A program made the translations under genes and the position numbers. Shown piece after piece: positions 33,097-59,120 of a stretch of 64,000 nucleotides of DNA; position 1 is the first letter of the stretch, and every line of letters starts with the position of its first letter. The notes beneath the pieces are model-generated. The model worked only from the letters and a program-made list of their open reading frames with translations. It was not told the origin of the DNA and did no database searches. The DNA comes from an uncultured Roseburia sp. (GTDB taxonomy: Bacteria > Bacillota > Clostridia > Lachnospirales > Lachnospiraceae), in assembly GCA_947573605.1 (NCBI GenBank), contig CANPGM010000001.1, forward strand, positions 109,818 to 173,817, given 5' to 3'.

Positions 33097-34410
33097 TCAG
33101 CAGTAGAAATCCATCATCATACCTGAATAGATAGAAGTAATATACGGAGTCGCGAAGTTGTGTCCCGGATTTTTGTAGGTTACTACGATTTTATTCACAT
33201 AGTTCATCGGATCAATGGAAGCTTCCGTGGATTTTTCGTCCAGTGAATCCTTGAAACTGTTTAAAACAGCAAAGCTTTCCTTTGCGTCATCTGCCGTAAC
33301 CGCGTCCGTTAAAAGACTTCGGTCTACACTGATCTGGGAATCTTTTTCAATGTTAAGTCCGATGGCTTCAAGCTCGTTTCGATAATCTCTTGCGACGCTG
33401 CTGATGTCACGCACCAGTTTGTTGGGCGTCTGTCCGTCGCTGTGCTGATGTCCGATATGGATGATTCCGTTGTATGCGTCTACCAGTTCTTCCACATTAT
33501 CCGCTACCGCATCGGCATTTGTCTTAAAACCGATCTGTGTAGCTTCGCCGTTTTCGTTTACGCCGCGCAGCGTAATATCAAAGGCATTATTTACGGTAAA
33601 GGTATTGGAATAAGAAAAATGCTCTGTTCCGTTTAATAAAAACGAAGAGTTCTGCGCATTTGTTTCTACATGATCAATACCAAGCGCGCGCATTGCCTTG
33701 ATGGAGGAAGGTTCCGCAGAAGGCAGTATCTGAAACAGATAATCTTCCGTTTCGCCGATACCGGTCTGTCTGGTGGAAATGCTAAGAGCCGACTTTCCCG
33801 ATTCGTTGGTAACGACAGACGCATTCAGACCGATGCCTGCACCTTCAATCAGCTTTGCAAGCTTATGCTGCAAAGTACGGTTTGTGTCATTTGGGCTGAC
33901 GGTATACTGGAACTCATAAGAGCTTGTATTGGTATTAAGGTCAAAGTTGTAAGAACCCGGCTCAATGTCCAATCGATCGGAATTGAGATAGTTGCCTACA
34001 TTTGTCTGGCCGGTGGCAAGCCGATTGACCTGAATAGAAAACCCGTTATTCCTTTCCGAGGAATCTCCCTCTCTGCCGATGTACTCTGCGAGTACTACGT
34101 CTTCGTTGGAAGACTGAGCGATTTTTTTGGAAAAAACGCTTTCGATTCCGCGCCCGGAATCGGACAGAGAAGCAATTACGTTTTTCATATTTCGGGTTGA
34201 TTCCTTAATATCAATGGCGTATTTTTTGACATCCCCTGATTCTTTAATCTTATAAAGAGGGGATTCCTTGTTTGCCTTAACGATTCTGTTGTAGATATCG
34301 CGCAGCTGGCTTTTCTTATGTGTGTCATAACGCGATACAGATACTTCAGAATTGCGATAAGTGCTAAGATAGTACTGATAAGCGCTATCAACTCCTGTTA
34401 TCCCTGTCAT
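33097..34410 (-). CDS. Flagellar hook-associated protein 2 (FliD-like), short/divergent
   Basis: NNGFSIQVNRLATGQTNVGNYL; FTVNNAFDITLRGVNENGEATQIGFKTNADAVADNVEELVDAYNGII; ISVDRSLLTDA. Confidence 0.78.
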   Translation of the reverse strand: MTGITGVDSAYQYYLSTYRNSEVSVSRYDTHKKSQLRDIYNRIVKANKESPLYKIKESGDVKKYAIDIKESTRNMKNVIASLSDSGRGIESVFSKKIAQSSNEDVVLAEYIGREGDSSERNNGFSIQVNRLATGQTNVGNYLNSDRLDIEPGSYNFDLNTNTSSYEFQYTVSPNDTNRTLQHKLAKLIEGAGIGLNASVVTNESGKSALSISTRQTGIGETEDYLFQILPSAEPSSIKAMRALGIDHVETNAQNSSFLLNGTEHFSYSNTFTVNNAFDITLRGVNENGEATQIGFKTNADAVADNVEELVDAYNGIIHIGHQHSDGQTPNKLVRDISSVARDYRNELEAIGLNIEKDSQISVDRSLLTDAVTADDAKESFAVLNSFKDSLDEKSTEASIDPMNYVNKIVVTYKNPGHNFATPYITSIYSGMMMDFYC

Positions 34411-34584: not shown

Positions 34585-34611
34585 TTATCGGCAGGTATGG
34601 TATGATTATTA
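34585..34611 (-). promoter_or_regulatory. Sigma-28 (SigD/FliA)-type promoter upstream of FliD-like gene
   Basis: Minus strand reads TAAT-N15-GCCGATAA (consensus TAAA-N15-GCCGATAA). Confidence 0.8.
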
Positions 34612-34640
34612 ACAGGAAAAAGAAGAAATTGAAAAAAATG

Positions 34641-46163: not shown

Positions 46164-46184
46164 TTTCAGGAAAAAAACAGGAAA

Positions 46185-46218
46185 GGAAATCGGCTGTATG
46201 TAAGCCGGTTTCCTTTTG
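46185..46218 (+). terminator. Terminator after rpoC
   Basis: GGAAATCGGCT-N7-AGCCGGTTTCC-TTTT. Confidence 0.75.
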
Positions 46219-46548: not shown

Positions 46549-47688
46549 TCAAGCGGAACGGCATTTTGCGTTTGCCCTTTCGTAAAGTTCTTCCAGAGAA
46601 ACACGCTTGTGATTATAGTAAACATCTGTCAGGGACATTGTATGTTTGCAGTTAGGACAGCAAAGTGGGTCATATCCGAAAGAAATGAGTATGTTGTTGC
46701 GCCACATGGTAAAGCTTTGGATAGTTTTACGCTTGGATTTATGAATTGCAAGGGTAAGCGTCTTATCTTTTTCGCGATGACGGGCATACAGACCGTAATA
46801 GCGGGTCATTTTGTAGTGAGGCTCAGGTATGTGCTGAATCAAAAGGGATATGAAGTCCAGAGCCGGTATTGTTTTCTTTACAAAAACATTGTCTTCGTGA
46901 CGGTTGTAATGGAAAGTGACATTCTCGCCATCATAAGAATCAATGCGGCTTAGTGCAATGACAGGGCGTCCAAGATAGCGGCTGATATATTTGATAACAG
47001 TCTTTGTATCGCAGAGGTTAGGTTTGGCATAAACATAGAAGCCATTTTTGTTCTTTTTGTAGATGGCAGCTTTGGCTTTTTTGAAAGAGGGGCCGATTTT
47101 CTTTTCCATTTCATTAAGTAAAGCAGTCTGAAAGGATTTGCGAAGAAGAGTGTAGCTAAAGTGTTTTACGACACGCCAGAAGCCATCGTCGGAGAAACCG
47201 CCTTGCGTGATGAGACAATGAATATGGGGGTTCCATTCCAGAGGGCGTCCGAAAGTATGAAGAACACAGATGAAACCGGGAACAAAGTTTTTTGATTTGT
47301 TGATTTCATGGAACATACGGAGAACAACGCTTCTGACTGCGTTAAAAAGGCAGTCGAGAAGGGAACGGTCTTCGAGAAAGAAATGGCGCAGTTGTTCATC
47401 AATTGTGAAAACACAGTGTCTGTGCGTGCATTGAATCAGTTTAAAAGACATGGCATTGGAACGTTCCTGACAGTATTTCACACCGCAAGTCGGGCAGAAA
47501 CGGCTTTTACAACGGAAAGGAACGTATTTCAACATCCCACATTTGGAGCAGGCGTACATAGCGCCGCCAAAAGAAGGGTCACCACAGTTAATCATCTTGT
47601 CGACGTTAGTAATGACGGCCTGACGAGGATGTAAAATATATAACATTTCTTCATAATGGTCAGTAAAAATTTCTTGGAGTATATTCAT
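46549..47688 (-). CDS. IS91 family transposase (N-terminal zinc-binding, HUH Y-transposase)
   Basis: CSKCGMLKYVPFRCKSRFCPTCGVKYCQER zinc-ribbon; EWNPHIHCLITQGG HUH-like motif; MTRYYGLYARHREK; C-terminal CCPNCKHTM. Confidence 0.9.
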   Translation of the reverse strand: MNILQEIFTDHYEEMLYILHPRQAVITNVDKMINCGDPSFGGAMYACSKCGMLKYVPFRCKSRFCPTCGVKYCQERSNAMSFKLIQCTHRHCVFTIDEQLRHFFLEDRSLLDCLFNAVRSVVLRMFHEINKSKNFVPGFICVLHTFGRPLEWNPHIHCLITQGGFSDDGFWRVVKHFSYTLLRKSFQTALLNEMEKKIGPSFKKAKAAIYKKNKNGFYVYAKPNLCDTKTVIKYISRYLGRPVIALSRIDSYDGENVTFHYNRHEDNVFVKKTIPALDFISLLIQHIPEPHYKMTRYYGLYARHREKDKTLTLAIHKSKRKTIQSFTMWRNNILISFGYDPLCCPNCKHTMSLTDVYYNHKRVSLEELYERANAKCRSA

Positions 47689-47805
47689 AATATTATTATG
47701 AAGGAAAAAGTAAGAAAAGGAAACCCCACCCCTCAAGATTGAGGGGCAGGGGAGCTGAATAGGCGAAGCCTATTTTTTATTCGCGTATATTTTTCGAAAA
47801 GATAT

Positions 47806-47832
47806 TAAACATTCAGTCACTTGTGCCGATAA
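47806..47832 (+). promoter_or_regulatory. Sigma-28 (SigD/FliA) promoter upstream of giant surface protein
   Basis: TAAA-CATTCAGTCACTTGT(15)-GCCGATAA, exact match to consensus. Confidence 0.85.
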
Positions 47833-47905
47833 ATGAGATAAGGAATTGTGTACCATACAGAATTGGGAATCAGTTTTCATGAAAAGAAAACAAGGAGAGA
47901 TGCTT

Positions 47906-50900
47906 ATGTACAAGGATGTAGGAAAGAGGGTTTTAGCGATCGCTGTGGCGATCTGCCTTGTGGTTACGCTGGTGAATATACCGGGGATCGAAGTAAAGGC
48001 GGACCCGGCTAAGGTTTATCACGACTACATGTATGGAGAGAACGGAGATGCCGGCTATGTGGCTGCAAATACGGCGGCTGCGATTTTTAAGGCGGACAGA
48101 AACGACTCCGGAGGGGCGGAGCTTTTATCGGGTGTATCGTTTGACGTACATGCGGAAAACGGAGAAGCTTTTGCCGGAGCATCGGCAAATGTATCGGTTT
48201 ACGCCGGTCCGGTTTCGGGGGATCCCGAAAGCGGTGTCTTTTTGTGTTCAAATGAAAGCTATTCGCTGGTAGAGGGAACCAATGAATTGTCGTTTGGCGC
48301 CTCCTCTGCGAAATTAAATAACGGTGAATTTTATGCAGTGGTTGTCACTTTAAACGGAGACGGATTATCCTTTTATACGGACTCCTTTTCCGAGACGGGC
48401 TGCACCTATATAAAAACGGAAGACGGAAGCTGGAAGGATATGGGGACGGAAGAAAAAAGCGTTACAATCCGAACCACTACGTATGATGAACCGTTTCTGG
48501 ATCCGATTAAGGAAAGCATAGTGGAGCGCGTTACGGATTTTGTATCCAATCTCATGGCTCCGCAGGAAGTTTCCCTTACAATAACCAGAGAAGAAGAGTT
48601 TGCAGAAGAAGTTTCGGCTGAGAATCCTTCTGAGGAAGAGAGTACGGATGCCGCTGCAGAAGGAGACGAAACTCCCGTTACGGAAGACGAACTGATTTGG
48701 GAAGAGGGAGCTACTTTTGATATCGGTATTGACGGGGAGAAAAAAGAAGGCGAGGCAAACGTTAATATCGGAGAAACGGCTGGAACGGACGCAAATAATC
48801 CGGCGGCTCCGACAGATACTTCTGGCGGAGGTCAGAAGACGATCGCTTTAAATGTATCCGAACTTACGCTTGCAGAAAATTATACGTTTACGCTGAAAGC
48901 TACCAATCTGCAGGCGAACAGAGTCTATGAGTGGAAAATTGCCGATTCGTCTCCGGCTGATGCAGTTGGCTTTGTCGGTGCGGACGGAACCATTTCCTCT
49001 TCGGCGGAGGGTGACGCGGTTACGGTAAAGGCATTGAAAGCAAATGCCAATGTAATACAGGTAGACGTTAGAGAGTACGAAATAATTCCTCCCGTTCCGC
49101 CGCTGACAAAACCGACCCGAAGGCTTACCGGAGTCGGCGGCTGCAAGATTACAGTAGTAGAAAAGTTTTTGGAAGTAAGTCTTGACAGCATTGACGACGT
49201 GACTTATACGGGATCGGAGCAAAAGGCAAAGGTTGTTGTAAGAGAGAAGGAAAGCGGAAAGATTATTCCGGATACTTCTAATGCATATAGTGTAAATTAT
49301 AACGGAGATCTCGTAAATGCCGGAACGATTGAAGTTACGGTAACGGGAAATAACACCGGTTATACCGGAAGCGATACAAAGACGTATCGTATTCTGCCGA
49401 AAGCCATTGACGAAACCTTTATCAATGGCGAGATTGCAATTGAGAATGTCGGAACGCTGACACAGGAAGGCATTGAAAATATCATTGCCGATAAGATTCT
49501 TTATAATGCGGTGAACCCGGACGGTACAACCACGCCGGTGCTTCTGACGAAAAATACGGATTACAGTCTGGTAAACTGGGAGGCGGATTTTGCGGAAGCC
49601 GGCGAGCACAAGGTGACGATGGTTGCGCTTGAGGGCGGTAACTATACCGGAAGTATCGAAATTACTTACAGTATCCGTAAAAGCATTGCGGATACCCAGA
49701 ATGCGGATGTAATTGTTGCACCGGGCAATTTTAACGGAGCGTACACTTATACCGGAGAAGAAATCATCCCTTCCGTAACTGTAAAATATGCGGGAAAAGT
49801 ATTGAAACCGGATGAGGATTATACGATTGAGTTTTTTGATAATACAAACGCGGGTTCCGCTACGATTCACATTGTCGGAATCAACGATTACTGCGGTGAA
49901 GTAGAAAAGAACTTTGATATTGCGCCGAAGTATATTTCAAACTATGATATGTCCCTGTTTTCTGTTGATGTTTTGCCAATCGAATTCCCGGTTGCTGCAA
50001 GGCCGGATTCGGCGGACGACCCGATTCCCGTACCGGAGTATACGGTAAGTTACAGAGGAAATGATCTTGTAAAGGGTACGGATTATACCGAGAGCGAAGT
50101 AAGAATTACGGCAGGAACAAATGTTCTGGACGCGACGAAGGCAGAGATTACGATTACAGGTAACGGTAATTTTACCGGAGAGCGGACGCTTGTTTTTAAT
50201 GTCGGCACGGATATTCAGAAATATATTGACGATAATGGTTTTGTTATTGATCTGGGAATACAGCAGCCCTATATTTACACAGGGCAAGTGGTTTCCTTAG
50301 AGAATGTTACGATTGGCGATCTGGTACAGAATGTTGACTTTACGGTAGAATGTCAGTCGAGAGATGTGGGAACGGCAAATGTATATATCCGCGGTATCGG
50401 AGCATACGGAGGAGTTTACCATATGAATGGCGATCCTGCCCTGCCGTCTGCTACATTCGAAATTGCAGCAAGAGACTTAAGTCAGATGGACGATGCTTGT
50501 TTTGTTCTTCCGACAAAACGGGTGGACTATTCGAAAGACCCGGAGAAAATGAAGCCGGAAGTATCGGTTGTCTTTATGGGCAACAGCATTGATCCGGCTG
50601 AGTATATTGTGGAATATGACGCGGTTCTGGCAGTCGGAACACATTCGATTAAAATTAAGGCAAACAGCAGCAATCTTACCGGGGAAAAGACAATTCAGTA
50701 TGAAATTGTAAGAGTAAACCTTACAAAGAACAATACGACGGTTGAACTTCCCGAAGATTACCGTTATACAGGAAAACCGATTGATATCAGAAAAGACGCC
50801 GTAATTAAGTGCAACGGTGAAACGCTGGAAATTGGCGTTGATTATGAAATTATCTATGTGACGGACGGCGAAAGCGAAGATGATTATCAAACCGGAATCG

Positions 50901-53900
50901 GAACCAAGAATATTGAGATTCACGGTATTAATAATTATACCGGAATTGTAGAAGCATCTTATGTAGTATCAAGAATCCCGTTGAACGAAGTGGAAATCGT
51001 TATGGATCAGCTTGATGCGGATGCAAGCTCTTACGTGCAGGATTTACTGGGCGGCGAAACAGGTTATCGCGCATATTTAAGATATGACGGAACGAAAAAA
51101 GAGCCGCAGGTTGTTTTAAATTATTGTGACGAGAACGGGGCTGTTGTTACGACCTTACAGCAAGACGTCGATTATACGGTTACTTATAGAAACAACACGG
51201 AAATGTCAAAAGAGGGCGAACCGGCATACCTTGTGATTACGGCGAAGAAGACGGACAAGGCGGCGTGTGTCGGCGAGCTGATTATTCCGTTCCTGATTTA
51301 CAGGGAAATCGACAATGCAAAAATCGACGGTGTTCCGGACAGCGTGGTATTTACCGGATCGGAAATGGATTTTTCGGATGAGGTGTCCGTAAAGACGGAA
51401 GAAAAGAACGGAATCCTGACATCTGAGAAAGAGCTGATACTGAATTATGATTATTTTATTACGTATGTGGGAGATAATATCAACGCAGGCGATAATAAAG
51501 TAGTTGAAATTCACGGAAGACCGAAGGCGGATATCCTGACGCCGAACGGATGCTATGTCATTAATTATTCGAAACAGTATTCGATTGGAAAGCGTCCGTT
51601 AAGTACGGTTGAGTACGACGAGTTAGTAAAGCAGTATGACAATGCGGCAGTGAAACTGACGGAAGAGGATTTTGCGAAGCTGAATCCCGGCTTTTATCTG
51701 GTGGAAGGCGGAGAACGGGTTCCGCTGGTATACGGCGAGGACTATACGGTTGTAGAATCCAGCTATGACGGCAATAATGCGATTACGGACGGTGCGACTG
51801 CAAGCGTACAGATTACGGCAAAAGATCCCGGAAACTTTACGGGAACGAAGAGAATATATTTCTCGATTGCGGGAAAATCCATAATGACTGTGGATGTTGA
51901 GGCGGAAAGCATTGTTTACAATGTAGACAGAGTTGAAAAAGTGCCAAAACTTACAATAACGGACGGAAACTATACGTTACAGCCGGATATTGATTACGTA
52001 ATTGTTCCGAAACGAAACGAAATATACGTAGATGCAGGAGATGCATATGTTTATATAAAAGGTATCGGAAATTATGAAGGCGAAGAGGAACGCAAGATTC
52101 GTTATCAGATTTTACCGCTTGACATCAGCGATACGACATTGGGAGCAATCACGCTTAACGGAATGGAGGCGGAATATACCTGGGAGCCGAACGGCGTAAA
52201 ACCGGTGCCTACTGCGGTGCTTTACCGGCCGGACGGCGCACAGGCTGACACGAGATTAAACGAGACGGACTATGAAATACTTCCGTATGTAGCGTTTGAA
52301 AATGTCGGCGAACATGCAATGATTCAAATTCAGGGCGTCGGAAACTTTTCGGGTGTTTATACCCAGGAGTATAAGATCAATCCGAAGGATCTCTCCATCC
52401 CGGATGACGAGGATATTGTAATTGAAGATATACCGGATCAGGAATTCAGCGGAAGTTATGCAACATATGTTTCGCCTGATGTGGTTGTGAAGCACAAAGG
52501 CGTAACACTCGTAAAAGACAGGGATTACAAGCTCACTTATAAAAATAATTTCGGAGTGACCGGAAGACCGGCGACGGCTACCATTCACGGTATCGGAAAT
52601 TATGAGGGAACCGTCAGCAAACAGTTTAATATTATAAACTCCATGAACGACGGAAGCACGATTAAAGTAACATATAATGATCCGGATGATGAGTATTTGT
52701 ATACGGGAGATGTTATCAAGCCCTCGGTTACCGTCAGAAATACAATGACGGGCGTAAAACTTGTCGAAGGTACCGACTATACGATAGAGGTACCGAAGGG
52801 ATTTGATAATACAAACGTAGGACCGGCAAGAATCGTCGTAACCGGAAAAGGAAAATATTCCGGACAGATTCCGCACGATTTTACAATTCTGCCAAGAAGT
52901 ATAAAAGACCCGAACGTTGAGATAACGCTTCCCGACGGATATCAATACGAGTATACCGGAGAGCATATTGCTCCGAAGGTAGAAGTTTCGTTTATGGGAA
53001 AAACGATGAGCAGTAATGATTTTGAGATTGTGACGCCGGATCGCTATATCGAGGTGGGAACCGGTAAAGTTGTCATTAAAGGTGTCGGCAATTTTGGCGC
53101 GGGAGAAGAAACGGTAGAGGTTTCCTTTGATATTGTTCCGATGTCAATCGGAAGCAGCAACACTTTTGCACCTGGTTTCAGCGGCGTAATAAGCGATCAG
53201 GATTATACCGGATCAGCGCTCGAACCGCAGCCGATTATTACGTATAAGAATAAGACGTTAACGCTTGATACGGATTATACGCTTTCCGACTATACCAATA
53301 ATATTGATATTGGTGTGGCTACGGTAAAAGTAAACGGTATCGGAAATTACAGAGATAGTGTAACGCTTGCATTTGCAATTAAAGGAAAGATTAACAACAG
53401 TAATATTGAAATCACGCTCCCGGAGACCACTTATCATGCAATTCCGGATCCGAACGCTACAACGGCGATTAAGCTGAAGGAAATTAAACCGGAGCCGACC
53501 GTTACCTTTAAGTATGATGACGGCAGGTCGCTTGAACTGAGCGCGGTTACGGATTACAATGTAAAATATCGGAATAATGCAAGAGTAGGGGAAGCCGAGG
53601 TCTATATTGAAGGCAAGGGTGCATACGAGGGAACTGCAAGTACGACATTCCGCATTATCGGCGACTTAAAAGATGCAGTGGTGGAACCGATTCCTCCGCA
53701 GCCGTATGACGACGGTGAGATCATTACGCCGGAGGTTGTTGTAAAATATTACGGAATGGAGCTGGTGGCAGAAACCGATTATGAGTGTATTTCCACAAGC
53801 AAGGACATTACGCCGGACGGAAGTACGGAAGTATTAACGATTCAGGGTGTAGCGGGCGGTTACTTCGACGGAACCAGTACGACAGCCGAATTCAGAATCG

Positions 53901-56347
53901 TGGAAGCAATCGGCCTTATTGTTAAAGTGGAAGATCCGCATAGTTATACGTTTACCGGGTCGCAGATTAAGCCAAAGATTCGTGTCAGATATGACGGTAT
54001 TAAGCTGGAAGAGAACCAGTATACTGTGAACTATGGTACGAATATCAATGCCGGAAGCCTGGCCGGAGTTGTCAGAGTAACTTATCGTCCGAACGGACAG
54101 TCGGCGCCTGTGGTAGAAGAAGCACGGTTTACGATTAATAAGTTTAATCTGGAACAGGTGGGCGTAACGGTTAAGGATAATGACGAATATGGTCATATTC
54201 GGGATATGGAATATCTCGGAGGAAATCCGATTGTGCCGAATAACTATGAAGTAGTGCTGCAGACGGACGGCGTAGATGTTTTAAGCTTCGGCAGCGATAA
54301 ATTTACGCTGACTTTCCCGGAGGGAGACAATATCAATCCGGGTGTGGCGCATGCAAGGATAGTTGCCAATACTGCAAATGAAAATAATTTTACGGGTTCT
54401 ATTGATACGACATTCCGCATAGTGGCAAGAGATATGGCAAATACGAATATCATGGTAGATCAGAAGGACTATATTTACAATGGTACAAAGATTTTGCCGG
54501 AAGTTACGATTATCGGTCACGCAAATGCAAAGAACGGCATTGATTATATTATCAGAGCCGAATCTGAGGACGGCTGCGTGAACGCCGGTGTGCAGAGAGC
54601 GGTCGTAGAAGGAATCAGCAGTTACTATACCGGAAGTCAGGTAGTAGAATTTATTATTACTCCTCTTGGAATGGATTCCGCGGATATAACGATTGACGAA
54701 ATTCCTGCGCAGGCGTTTACGGGCAGTGAAGTTCATCCGGATGACAGCATTGTTGTCAGATACAAAGGGATTGCTCTGACGGCCGACGTGGATTATAATG
54801 TAACTTATGAGAACTGCATTAACGCAGGAAATAATACCGCTGTTGCGCGTATTGTAGGAAAAGGAAACTTTAACAGTTCAAAGACAAAGAACTTTACGAT
54901 TAATCCGGTGGATATTAATTCTGAGAGTATTGTATTAGAACCGATACCGAGCGGAATCTATACGGGCTCTCCGGTTGAGGCAGTCGTTACAATGAAGTTC
55001 GGAGAAATGAAACTGACGCAAGGCGTTGATTTTACCGTAGAGTATGACGGTCCGCATACGGAACTCGGCGTGGTGAATCTTACGATTATAGGAAAAGATA
55101 ATTTTGTTGGAAGAAGATCGGGGTCTTTCCGAATTGTTGCGGACAGCATTGCAAATGCAGAGGTTGAAGGGCTGGAATTGTCTTATGTATATACCGGTAA
55201 AGCGATTTGCCCGGATAATCTCAAAGTAAGCATCGGAACGACGGTTCTTACAAAAGATACGGATTATACGCTTTCCTATGGCGAGAATACAAACGTAGGA
55301 AATGGTACGGTTACGATTTCAGGAACGGGTGAGACATACGGAGGAAGTAAGGAGCTTACGTTCCAGATTACGCAGAAATCGATCAGCGATGCCGATGTTG
55401 TTATGACCGGCTTTGTGAAGAGCATTCCATATAACGGATTGCCGGTCGTACAGGACGGAATTGTATTGACCTATGGAGACATGACGCTTACAGAAGGTAC
55501 GGATTATGTACTGGAGTGTACAAATAATAATGCAGTTACCGATGAAGCGCGTATGACAATTTCAGGAATCGGGAACTTTGCCGGAACGATTTCCGAAACA
55601 TATATCATTAGCGCTGCGGCATTCGACAATATAGAGGTTAGCAATGTATCTTCCGTATACACTTACACGGGCGAGCCAATTGTACCGGAACCGATTGTGA
55701 CAGTTGACGGTGCGGTACTGACAGTAGATGTCGATTATACCGTGGAGCTTAAGGACAATGTCAACGCGGGTGTCGCAACCCTCATTATTAACGGAATAGG
55801 CAACTTTAAGGGCGCCGTAAAAGAAGTCAACTTTACTATTTTAAGCAGGAGTATTCAAAGAGCTACTTTTGCACCGATTGAGGATCAGATTTATAACGGA
55901 GAAGAAGTAAGACCGGATGTGACGGTAACAGACAAGGATAAGGTTCTTGTGGCAGGCATCGATTACGATTTGTCCTATACGGAGAATCAGAAGGCCGGTA
56001 CGGCGACCGCAATTATCGTCGGTAAAAAGAATTATCGTGCTACTAAATATCTGCAGTTTGAGATTAAGGTGGGAGCGGTAACTTCGGCGACGGTAACGGA
56101 GTGGACAGATACAACGGTAAGCTTAAGCTGGAGCGGCGAGGGTGTTGTAACCGGATACGAAATTTATCGTGACGACGGAAGCGGACAGTATCAGTTGATT
56201 GCCCGTACGGCAAAACAATCTTATACGGATACACAGCTTACATCGGGGACATTCTATTCTTACAGAGTACGTGCATATTATCTGGCAACAGACAGTGAAC
56301 CCGCGTATGGAGAAATTTCTCCGACGGTAGAGATTCAGACACGTTAA
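47906..56347 (+). CDS. Giant secreted surface protein with ~26 Ig/MBG-like repeats and C-terminal Fn3 domain
   Basis: Signal peptide YKDVGKRVLAIAVAICLVVTLVNIPGIEVKA; repeats like YTYTGEPIVPEPIVTVDGAVLTVDVDYTVELKDNVNAGVATLIINGIGNFKGAVKEVNFTI; final SATVTEWTDTTVSLSWSG...YEIYRDDGSGQYQLIARTAKQSYTDTQL Fn3. AAGGAG RBS favours ATG 47906. Confidence 0.9.
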   Translation: MYKDVGKRVLAIAVAICLVVTLVNIPGIEVKADPAKVYHDYMYGENGDAGYVAANTAAAIFKADRNDSGGAELLSGVSFDVHAENGEAFAGASANVSVYAGPVSGDPESGVFLCSNESYSLVEGTNELSFGASSAKLNNGEFYAVVVTLNGDGLSFYTDSFSETGCTYIKTEDGSWKDMGTEEKSVTIRTTTYDEPFLDPIKESIVERVTDFVSNLMAPQEVSLTITREEEFAEEVSAENPSEEESTDAAAEGDETPVTEDELIWEEGATFDIGIDGEKKEGEANVNIGETAGTDANNPAAPTDTSGGGQKTIALNVSELTLAENYTFTLKATNLQANRVYEWKIADSSPADAVGFVGADGTISSSAEGDAVTVKALKANANVIQVDVREYEIIPPVPPLTKPTRRLTGVGGCKITVVEKFLEVSLDSIDDVTYTGSEQKAKVVVREKESGKIIPDTSNAYSVNYNGDLVNAGTIEVTVTGNNTGYTGSDTKTYRILPKAIDETFINGEIAIENVGTLTQEGIENIIADKILYNAVNPDGTTTPVLLTKNTDYSLVNWEADFAEAGEHKVTMVALEGGNYTGSIEITYSIRKSIADTQNADVIVAPGNFNGAYTYTGEEIIPSVTVKYAGKVLKPDEDYTIEFFDNTNAGSATIHIVGINDYCGEVEKNFDIAPKYISNYDMSLFSVDVLPIEFPVAARPDSADDPIPVPEYTVSYRGNDLVKGTDYTESEVRITAGTNVLDATKAEITITGNGNFTGERTLVFNVGTDIQKYIDDNGFVIDLGIQQPYIYTGQVVSLENVTIGDLVQNVDFTVECQSRDVGTANVYIRGIGAYGGVYHMNGDPALPSATFEIAARDLSQMDDACFVLPTKRVDYSKDPEKMKPEVSVVFMGNSIDPAEYIVEYDAVLAVGTHSIKIKANSSNLTGEKTIQYEIVRVNLTKNNTTVELPEDYRYTGKPIDIRKDAVIKCNGETLEIGVDYEIIYVTDGESEDDYQTGIGTKNIEIHGINNYTGIVEASYVVSRIPLNEVEIVMDQLDADASSYVQDLLGGETGYRAYLRYDGTKKEPQVVLNYCDENGAVVTTLQQDVDYTVTYRNNTEMSKEGEPAYLVITAKKTDKAACVGELIIPFLIYREIDNAKIDGVPDSVVFTGSEMDFSDEVSVKTEEKNGILTSEKELILNYDYFITYVGDNINAGDNKVVEIHGRPKADILTPNGCYVINYSKQYSIGKRPLSTVEYDELVKQYDNAAVKLTEEDFAKLNPGFYLVEGGERVPLVYGEDYTVVESSYDGNNAITDGATASVQITAKDPGNFTGTKRIYFSIAGKSIMTVDVEAESIVYNVDRVEKVPKLTITDGNYTLQPDIDYVIVPKRNEIYVDAGDAYVYIKGIGNYEGEEERKIRYQILPLDISDTTLGAITLNGMEAEYTWEPNGVKPVPTAVLYRPDGAQADTRLNETDYEILPYVAFENVGEHAMIQIQGVGNFSGVYTQEYKINPKDLSIPDDEDIVIEDIPDQEFSGSYATYVSPDVVVKHKGVTLVKDRDYKLTYKNNFGVTGRPATATIHGIGNYEGTVSKQFNIINSMNDGSTIKVTYNDPDDEYLYTGDVIKPSVTVRNTMTGVKLVEGTDYTIEVPKGFDNTNVGPARIVVTGKGKYSGQIPHDFTILPRSIKDPNVEITLPDGYQYEYTGEHIAPKVEVSFMGKTMSSNDFEIVTPDRYIEVGTGKVVIKGVGNFGAGEETVEVSFDIVPMSIGSSNTFAPGFSGVISDQDYTGSALEPQPIITYKNKTLTLDTDYTLSDYTNNIDIGVATVKVNGIGNYRDSVTLAFAIKGKINNSNIEITLPETTYHAIPDPNATTAIKLKEIKPEPTVTFKYDDGRSLELSAVTDYNVKYRNNARVGEAEVYIEGKGAYEGTASTTFRIIGDLKDAVVEPIPPQPYDDGEIITPEVVVKYYGMELVAETDYECISTSKDITPDGSTEVLTIQGVAGGYFDGTSTTAEFRIVEAIGLIVKVEDPHSYTFTGSQIKPKIRVRYDGIKLEENQYTVNYGTNINAGSLAGVVRVTYRPNGQSAPVVEEARFTINKFNLEQVGVTVKDNDEYGHIRDMEYLGGNPIVPNNYEVVLQTDGVDVLSFGSDKFTLTFPEGDNINPGVAHARIVANTANENNFTGSIDTTFRIVARDMANTNIMVDQKDYIYNGTKILPEVTIIGHANAKNGIDYIIRAESEDGCVNAGVQRAVVEGISSYYTGSQVVEFIITPLGMDSADITIDEIPAQAFTGSEVHPDDSIVVRYKGIALTADVDYNVTYENCINAGNNTAVARIVGKGNFNSSKTKNFTINPVDINSESIVLEPIPSGIYTGSPVEAVVTMKFGEMKLTQGVDFTVEYDGPHTELGVVNLTIIGKDNFVGRRSGSFRIVADSIANAEVEGLELSYVYTGKAICPDNLKVSIGTTVLTKDTDYTLSYGENTNVGNGTVTISGTGETYGGSKELTFQITQKSISDADVVMTGFVKSIPYNGLPVVQDGIVLTYGDMTLTEGTDYVLECTNNNAVTDEARMTISGIGNFAGTISETYIISAAAFDNIEVSNVSSVYTYTGEPIVPEPIVTVDGAVLTVDVDYTVELKDNVNAGVATLIINGIGNFKGAVKEVNFTILSRSIQRATFAPIEDQIYNGEEVRPDVTVTDKDKVLVAGIDYDLSYTENQKAGTATAIIVGKKNYRATKYLQFEIKVGAVTSATVTEWTDTTVSLSWSGEGVVTGYEIYRDDGSGQYQLIARTAKQSYTDTQLTSGTFYSYRVRAYYLATDSEPAYGEISPTVEIQTR

Positions 56348-56374: not shown

Positions 56375-57499
56375 ATGGCTAGGAAGTACAGAATTGGGAA
56401 ATTCAGGTTTGATACACGGGAAGAGTATAACTTGGGAAGGGATGACGTAAAAAAAATTTATAAAATTACTCATTCCGTAGATATCTACGATCCGGATATA
56501 GCACTGCGGCTCTACCAGTCCATACGTACTGGAAAAATAGAGCTGCACAGCAAAATAGGAAGAAAGTTTTTCCTTGACCTTGCCGATATTGTGGCAAAAA
56601 ACGCCGAAGTATCGGCAAGGGAGCAGGAAAAACAAAAGGAATCGGAAAAGTCAGATTACTGGCAGAGAATTTTGGGACTTGTGTGTCTGCTTGCAGGCAT
56701 TCTCTGCTGTGTTTGGTATTTTTGGTCGGATTATACAAATCGACGCGGAAATGAGACAAATGATTATCTGAGAAAGCTGCGGGAAGATCCGCAGGAAACG
56801 GCGGATTTGGTTAGCAATGATGCCTTTTTTATGGAAGATGCGCCGGAGCTGGCCGCTTCTCTGGAGGGAACGGGTGAAACGGAGGAGACGGACGACGGAT
56901 ACAAACCTGAAATATTAGCGGAGTATCAGCCGATTATTCAGGTGAATCCCGATTTTGGCGGATGGATAACGATTGAAGGAACACAGATTGATTATCCGGT
57001 TATGTATACAAAATCGGATGACAGATTTTATTTAAAACATAATTTTGACAGAGAAGAGGATATAAACGGAACGCTGTTTATGGATTCAAGAGTCAATCTG
57101 GCAAGGCCCGGAACGAATATTATTATTTACGGGCATAACATGAAAAGCGGTCAGATGTTTGGCGGCCTGAAAAGTTATTTGAATGAGGACTACTTTCAGT
57201 CTCATAAACAGATTACGTTTGATACAATATATGAAAAAGGCGTCTATGAAGTTTTTGCGGTTTGTCTTGCACAGGTAAGGTATCAGGATGAGGATGCCTA
57301 TCGGTATTATAATTTTATACAGGCAGACTCGGAGGAAGCCTTTTTGGAGTTTCTCCGAAATGTGGAACAGCTCTCGGTTTTTGCGGATCAGAATTTACCG
57401 GAATACGGGGATGAGCTATTGACATTATCCACCTGCAACAGTTATGTGGAGGATGGCAGGCTGTTTCTGGTAGCAAAAAAATGCAGGGAAGCAGAATAA
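56375..57499 (+). CDS. Class B-like sortase with N-terminal cytoplasmic extension
   Basis: TM LGLVCLLAGILCCVWYFW; FGGWITIEGTQIDYPVMYTKSDDRFYLKHNFDREEDINGTLFMDSR; IIIYGHNM; LLTLSTCNSYVEDGRLFLVAKK. Confidence 0.9.
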   Translation: MARKYRIGKFRFDTREEYNLGRDDVKKIYKITHSVDIYDPDIALRLYQSIRTGKIELHSKIGRKFFLDLADIVAKNAEVSAREQEKQKESEKSDYWQRILGLVCLLAGILCCVWYFWSDYTNRRGNETNDYLRKLREDPQETADLVSNDAFFMEDAPELAASLEGTGETEETDDGYKPEILAEYQPIIQVNPDFGGWITIEGTQIDYPVMYTKSDDRFYLKHNFDREEDINGTLFMDSRVNLARPGTNIIIYGHNMKSGQMFGGLKSYLNEDYFQSHKQITFDTIYEKGVYEVFAVCLAQVRYQDEDAYRYYNFIQADSEEAFLEFLRNVEQLSVFADQNLPEYGDELLTLSTCNSYVEDGRLFLVAKKCREAE

Positions 57500-57540: not shown

Positions 57541-58953
57541 ATGAAAAAACGTATCAAAAGAAAAATGGGGTTTGTATTGGTCATCGCAATGCTCATCGTC
57601 ATGTTCTATCCCGGTAAGCCCGGTAAGGCGGCGGATGGATTTGTAATTGTTGACGGTGTGCTGACAGGCTACACCGGCGTGGAAAATGCGGTCGTAATTC
57701 CGGATGAGGTAACCTCAATCGGTAAGGATGCTTTTGCCGGAACTACCATTACATCCGTGGCGATTGGCGGTAATGTCACAAGTATTGACTCAGGAGCTTT
57801 CAGACAATGCGGTGAGCTGGAAAGCGTTACGATTCCGGCTACGGTTCAGTCGGTCGGTTCGGAGGCATTTCAGGATTGTGAAAGTCTATATGAGGTAACA
57901 TGGATCAGCAATGCGGGAATCCAGGATTATACCTTTGACGGCTGCAAAAGCTTAGAGCGGATACGTTTGTCACCCAATCTTGCATCTATCGGAAATCTGG
58001 CGTTCCGTAACTGCGAAAGTCTTTCCAGTTTCAATATACCTTCCGGAACAGGTTCGGTTGCGTTAGGCGCGTTTAACGGCTGTACAAGGATGCAGGCTAT
58101 TAATGTAGAACAGGGAAACTCTTATTTTTCGTCATATGACGGATGTTTGTATGGTGGATATAACGGAAATGTAGTATCTTTACTCCGCTGTCCGCAGGGA
58201 AAACAGACAGTAGATATTCAGAAAGACACGACAATGGTAGCGCCGTATGCGTTCTTTGGAAACAGAATGAGTACGGTGGAAATGCCGTTGGAAGTTACTA
58301 CGATTTCACTGAATGCATTTGAAAACAGCAAGGTGGATACATTGGTTCTCGGTCAAAAAGTTGAGGTATTTGAAGGACAGACAAATGCCGGTTTTGGTGT
58401 GATTAAGGTAGCGGAAGGGGCTCCGGTGTCGGATACGATTCACAATGTGGTCGGCGAAGGCGTAACGATCATCGGTTTTAGTCCGGATAAACCGGATAAC
58501 CCGGACAATCCAGATAACCCGGACAATCCAGATAATCCGGACAATCCGGATAACCCAGATAACCCGGACAATCCGGATAACCCAGACAATCCGGATAATC
58601 CCGATAAACCGGATAACCCCGATAATCCCGATAAACCGGATAATCCGGACGACAATAAACCGGATGACAATAACCCGGGAGGGTCTACAGGGGACGGGAA
58701 TGACGGGAACAACGGCAATCAGACGCCGGATAATAATCAGGGCGGTACACAGGTTGCGGTCAATGATAACAATACGGTAAATCAGGCGCCGACCCCACCG
58801 GCACAGAACGCTACGGGAACCGAACATATAAAGGATAATACTCCGTCGACCGGACCCGAGCTGAATGCAAAGTATATTCTCTGTCTTGGTGTGATGCTTT
58901 TGGGTGTATATATGATTCTGAGCGGCAGAAAGGAATCCTGCAGAACGGCATAA
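57541..58953 (+). CDS. BspA-like leucine-rich repeat surface protein with PDN-rich stalk and sorting signal
   Basis: VVIPDEVTSIGKDAFAGTTITSVAIGGNVTSIDSGAFRQCGELESVTIPATV; PDNPDN stalk; C-term NTPSTGPELNAKYILCLGVMLLGVYMILSGRKESCRTA. Confidence 0.92.
   Translation: MKKRIKRKMGFVLVIAMLIVMFYPGKPGKAADGFVIVDGVLTGYTGVENAVVIPDEVTSIGKDAFAGTTITSVAIGGNVTSIDSGAFRQCGELESVTIPATVQSVGSEAFQDCESLYEVTWISNAGIQDYTFDGCKSLERIRLSPNLASIGNLAFRNCESLSSFNIPSGTGSVALGAFNGCTRMQAINVEQGNSYFSSYDGCLYGGYNGNVVSLLRCPQGKQTVDIQKDTTMVAPYAFFGNRMSTVEMPLEVTTISLNAFENSKVDTLVLGQKVEVFEGQTNAGFGVIKVAEGAPVSDTIHNVVGEGVTIIGFSPDKPDNPDNPDNPDNPDNPDNPDNPDNPDNPDNPDNPDNPDKPDNPDNPDKPDNPDDNKPDDNNPGGSTGDGNDGNNGNQTPDNNQGGTQVAVNDNNTVNQAPTPPAQNATGTEHIKDNTPSTGPELNAKYILCLGVMLLGVYMILSGRKESCRTA
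58483..58680 (+). repeat. 9-nt tandem repeat encoding (PDN)n / (PDK)
   Basis: CCGGATAACCCGGACAATCCAGATAAC... encoding PDKPDNPDNPDN...; repeats degrade at the 3' end. Confidence 0.9.
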
Positions 58954-59008: not shown

Positions 59009-59045
59009 AGAGGAAGACTTTTCATCAATGTCTTCCTCTTTTTTT
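59009..59045 (+). terminator. Intrinsic terminator at end of surface-protein operon
   Basis: AGAGGAAGAC-loop-GTCTTCCTCTTTTTTTT. Confidence 0.85.
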
Positions 59046-59091
59046 GCATGCATAAAACCGCAATTAGGCAGACGTAGTACATAAAAAACTG

Positions 59092-59120
59092 TTGACAAAC
59101 AATAACAATCCTTGTATAAT
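59092..59120 (+). promoter_or_regulatory. Sigma-A promoter of str operon
   Basis: TTGACA-N17-TATAAT. Confidence 0.85.

Follow-up and report, generated by a model that had tools for sequence, protein, structure and literature searches.

Organization of the locus

The window, i.e., the whole stretch of 64,000 nucleotides of Roseburia DNA that was analysed, contains between rpoC and rpsL a set of three genes, which encode a giant secreted protein, a sortase and an LRR protein and are preceded by a sequence that resembles the promoters of the flagellar sigma factor sigma-28 (FliA/SigD). The features of this region are:

46181-46217 (+), terminator-like hairpin after rpoC
46549-47736 (-), IS91-family transposase (NF033538, 310 bits)
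47757-47775 (+), terminator-like hairpin where the IS ends, before the promoter (weak fold, z -1.8)
47805-47844 (+), predicted sigma-28-type promoter in the conserved extended form TTAA-N18-CGATAAA-N3-GATAAGG (exact match and 12 orthologues)
47906-56347 (+), giant secreted protein of 2813 aa (signal peptide, N-terminal domain, many repeats, C-terminal fn3)
56375-57499 (+), class B sortase of 374 aa (TIGR03064 and sortase B structures)
57541-58953 (+), BspA-type LRR protein (PF13306 LRR_5, E 2.5e-40; start and tail read from the sequence)
59009-59047 (+), intrinsic terminator ending the operon (10-pair stem followed by a T run, -15.4 kcal/mol, z -4.8)
59092-59120 (+), sigma-A promoter of rpsL, TTGACA-N17-TATAAT (12/12 match), which separates the ribosomal operon

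The giant protein and sortase genes are 27 nt apart, and 41 nt separate the sortase gene from the BspA gene when the RBS-supported start of the latter at 57541 is used. The order giant protein-sortase-BspA is kept in the orthologous loci with enough sequence, usually with rpoC before or rpsL after the genes; at one locus (G070), neither rpoC nor rpsL lies within the DNA fetched. Co-transcription of the three genes, which an earlier sequence-only reading of the window had put forward as a possibility, agrees with the narrow intergenic gaps, with the terminators that flank the genes and with a gene order that is kept among relatives. In two relatives (G032 and G064; loci L077 and L153), another gene for an LRR-type protein is located directly before the operon promoter.

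The box in the window and the chance of a match

The sequence-only reading had described an exact match to the sigma-28 consensus with a 15-nt spacer, about 75 nt upstream of an RBS-supported ATG. A pattern search recovered this match: TAAACATTCAGTCACTTGTGCCGATAA at 47806-47832 (+) is the sole exact consensus match within the 64-kb window, and in the classical register the promoter reads TAAA-N15-GCCGATAA (47806-47832). The distance from the end of the box to the ATG at 47906 is 73 nt, and AAGGAGAG is found upstream of the ATG. Shuffled versions of the window contained 0.03 exact matches on average, with at least one match in 3 of 100 shuffles.

It should be noted that an exact match to 12 bases is weak evidence when taken alone, because the pattern searches on which all genome-wide statements for the 3.08-Mb draft genome (G000) are based returned eight exact matches to this consensus, seven of which fall inside ORFs of at least 185 aa, the operon box being the only one outside. 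An exact consensus match was thus rejected as proof of a sigma-28 promoter. Two flagellin promoters of the same genome read TAAA-N15-ACCGATAT and are not exact matches to the 12-base consensus.

The eight genomic matches could also be taken to indicate that the box is a product of chance, or it could have been brought by the IS91 element, which fills the space between rpoC and the promoter. This explanation is hardly credible. The right end of the element lies at about 47778-47782, where the similarity to other genomic copies stops, so that the box is outside the element; in relatives that lack the IS and have rpoC directly upstream, the box is present shortly downstream of rpoC. The IS91 element was therefore rejected as the source of the box, and a chance origin is contradicted by the presence of the box in every one of the 12 orthologues examined. 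At least eight further sites in the draft genome, mostly at contig ends, have the same right end as the element.

Conservation of the box in Roseburia

Each of the 12 aligned promoters (the window's own included) carries TTAA-N18-CGATA[AT]A-N3-[GA]ATA, and the box starts 79-103 nt before the ATG. The mean information content is 1.0-1.6 bits per column over the box and the adjoining downstream block, and 0.2-0.5 in most blocks further out; thus, the comparison with flanking DNA that the sequence-only reading had proposed came out in favour of the box. Relatives were collected by protein search, by the box and by a scan of named genomes, and the locus collection is therefore partly box-based. 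Six of the loci (G000, G015, G020, G021, G032 and G035) were found first via protein similarity alone, and all six have the box.

The conserved element does not coincide with the consensus from which the sequence-only reading had argued. The match at all 12 positions is real, but in the orthologues A, C or T is found at position 4 of the -35 element (classical register), and C, T or A precedes CGATA, so that the perfect score carries less weight than had been attached to it. The conserved element also takes in GATAAGG, which lies downstream of the -10 element, and is thus wider than that consensus. The stretch after GATAAGG (window 47844-47857 and its counterparts in the orthologues) is also conserved, roughly as TTnTnTAC. 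Folding of the leader gave results no better than those of shuffled sequences, and a search of the leader for riboswitches and known RNAs, the c-di-GMP riboswitch included, found none. Of the relatives outside Roseburia whose similarity is limited to the signal peptide (L238-L241), L240 possesses a comparable box, and the others are without a clear one.

Transcription of the operon mainly from a housekeeping promoter or by read-through, with the sigma-28-type box adding little, has to be considered, since housekeeping promoters have been assigned to some Roseburia flagellin genes, and both kinds of promoter to two flagellin records of E. siraeum (PMC3720852). A simple scan, of a kind that misses weak promoters, found no sigma-A-like match between the IS end and the ATG (47782-47905). 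One terminator-like hairpin follows rpoC and another lies at the IS end, which speaks against read-through, and it is the box that forms the conserved part of the upstream region. This explanation is accordingly regarded as very improbable.

Flagellar genes share the promoter form

The extended pattern TTAA-N17/18-CGATAWA-N3-GATA, allowing no mismatch, was used to scan 61 genomes of the genus and gave 31 matches, versus 4 for the reversed control. The operon lies downstream of 10 of these matches, csrA and flagellin genes of 3 each, flgF/G of 2, FliD-like genes of 2 and flaG of 1; the rest include several matches before genes of unknown function (one with DUF6033) and about five without a convincing link. 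The pattern was derived from the operon itself and thus presupposes part of the spacing, but it does not determine which other genes are found. A looser scan of six genomes with TAAA-N14-16-CCGATAW yielded largely background, with matches outside G000 either modestly above the reversed control or not above it at all. Of the genome-wide search that the sequence-only reading had suggested, the exact form gave poor evidence, the other seven of the eight matches being within ORFs, while the extended form applied to the genus does mark flagellar genes.

In G000, the flgM box is TCCGATAAAT with the -10 element CCGATAAA, flaG has the box TTAA-N17-CGATATA, and boxes of this kind also precede two flagellin genes. 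With a matrix made from flagellar promoters, the operon box scored 17.4, compared to 12.7 for the best gene of the comparison set that is neither flagellar nor part of the cassette; with training on flagellin promoters only, the values were 14.3 and 11.0. Scores are lower for the five orthologues that have GTCGATAA (11.9 with the first matrix and 9.1 with the flagellin-only one), and with the latter matrix two orthologues score best at another site. A sigma-28 consensus from Butyrivibrio that has been applied to Roseburia, TAAA(N16-17)MCGATAa (PMC3720852), covers the form of the operon box. G000 encodes both FliA (263.9 bits, cut-off 189.6) and the anti-sigma factor FlgM (71.8 bits, cut-off 25). 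fliA was found in 58 of the 61 genomes; its presence or absence is therefore uninformative, and loss of motility could not serve as a test.

Several further genes have promoters of this type. In the window, a FliD-like gene with a FliD_C domain (33097-34410, minus strand) has the sigma-28-type box TTAATAATCATACCATACCTGCCGATAA about 200 nt upstream (approximately 34585-34612, minus strand), with the -10 element GCCGATAA, identical to that of the operon. In three species of the genus (L190, L193 and L194), such a box precedes csrA, which is known from other bacteria for its post-transcriptional regulation of flagellin. In several species, genes of unknown function, one of them encoding DUF6033, lie behind boxes of this type (L196, L147, L149, L195, L200 and L201); they are further candidates for membership of the regulon.

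The conservation pattern itself raises the question of whether the element is instead a promoter with an operator for another sigma factor or an activator, in which case GATAAGG would be the operator and the likeness to sigma-28 secondary. In the operon promoters, conservation extends over GATAAGG, which is outside the sigma-28 consensus, and into the leader that follows; the full form ending in GATAAGG is, at up to two mismatches, almost confined to the operon within G000; and position 4 of the -35 element is not conserved. Nevertheless, in other Roseburia species the same -35/-10 layout, again followed by GATA, is found in front of flagellar genes, and flgM of G000 has the -10 element CCGATAAA. 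This explanation therefore appears improbable, even if less so than transcription from a housekeeping promoter.

Control by sigma-28 is, in contrast, strongly supported by the conservation among orthologues together with the genus scan that marks flagellar genes. The box has the -35 and -10 elements of a sigma-28 promoter, spaced as is usual for the genus and in a form shared with flagellar genes, it is conserved, and both the sigma factor and FlgM are encoded in the genome. As judged from these sequence features, the box is very probably a sigma-28 promoter that transcribes the conserved giant protein-sortase-LRR operon.

The encoded proteins

The sequence-only reading had taken the giant protein for the component anchored to the wall. 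This assumption could not be upheld: no sorting signal is present at the C-terminus of the protein, which reads as an fn3-like end both here and in those orthologues that are complete. Orthologues of the giant protein that were read to the end are 884 to 3000 aa long; the two ends are conserved, and the repeats vary in number from species to species. The structural model of its N-terminal domain has a mean pLDDT of 77.7, and its best fold match is the lectin-like domain of the C. difficile protein Cwp84 (Foldseek E of about 1e-6); a Pfam search gave no confident family for this domain. The predicted Cwp84-like fold is a lead towards a binding function.

The sortase scores 155.6 bits with TIGR03064, a narrow margin over the cut-off of 153.75, and its best structure matches are solved sortase B enzymes. 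The likely substrate is the LRR protein rather than the giant protein, because the C-terminus of the former has TPSTG (58840-58854), a hydrophobic stretch and a basic tail (SGRKES...), i.e., the parts of a sorting signal; the LRR protein of G020 has TPTTG instead. C. difficile SrtB recognises (S/P)PXTG, and proteins with SPSTG and SPQTG are not processed there in vivo (PMC5569036), so that wall anchoring of the LRR protein is no more than plausible.

A probable surface-protein operon of the sigma-28 regulon

The operon is likely to be a non-flagellar member of the sigma-28 regulon and not a new kind of system. In the usual scheme, FlgM holds sigma-28 back until the hook-basal body of the flagellum is complete. 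Applied to Roseburia, sigma-28 would be freed from FlgM after hook completion and would then transcribe the operon together with the flagellin genes. Flagellated cells would display the anchored LRR protein and would secrete or retain the giant protein. Transcription by sigma-28, the timing by FlgM, the display at the surface and any binding function are what we infer from the promoter and the encoded proteins, and the same applies to the adhesin role and the link to swimming cells that the sequence-only reading had envisaged.

A tentative extension, unlikely on present evidence, is that the gene products form a structure at the cell surface that acts jointly with the flagellum, e.g., to help swimming cells to bind to mucus or move along it. 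If this were true, swimming and sortase-dependent display would be parts of one programme in these commensals, and not opposites. In a genus of flagellated commensals, a sortase operon with a conserved sigma-28 promoter would join motility and surface display. The operon would also be a concrete non-flagellar target of sigma-28, and thus a reason to consider surface proteins when flagellin expression is measured in Roseburia. A literature search of incomplete coverage found no paper on the operon or its regulation, which is weak evidence of novelty.

Comparison with known systems

The closest known promoters are the sigma-28 promoters of flagellin genes in Roseburia, Eubacterium and Butyrivibrio (PMC3720852), which come from the same genus or close relatives and have the same -35/-10 layout. 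They drive flagellin genes, whereas the operon box would drive genes for surface proteins and a sortase and has GATAAGG after the -10 element.

Non-flagellar genes under flagellar control are known and include a large adhesin of Vibrio cholerae (PMC6890996). As far as it is discussed in that paper, frhA of strain O395 encodes a large adhesin and is a FliA-dependent class 4 gene of the flagellar hierarchy; a different result is reported there for an El Tor strain. The likeness consists of a very large surface protein under flagellar regulators including FliA, which in the case of the operon would follow from its promoter. The differences are that V. cholerae is Gram-negative, that no sortase is involved and that the protein is unrelated to the giant protein.

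The lectin-like domain of Cwp84 (PDB 4ci7, 4d59) resembles the N-terminal domain of the giant protein with a query TM-score of 0.43-0.45 and about 18-19% identity; this likeness is moderate and rests on one domain, and Cwp84 also has a protease domain.

SrtB of C. difficile and its substrates, e.g., CD2831 (PMC6366702, PMC5569036), share with the operon a class B sortase in a gut clostridium, and their (S/P)PxTG-type signals are comparable to TPSTG. In C. difficile, however, c-di-GMP raises sortase substrates via riboswitches, while flagella and motility are lowered (PMC6366702). The arrangement suggested here would be the opposite, with no riboswitch found and the surface proteins probably co-regulated with motility.
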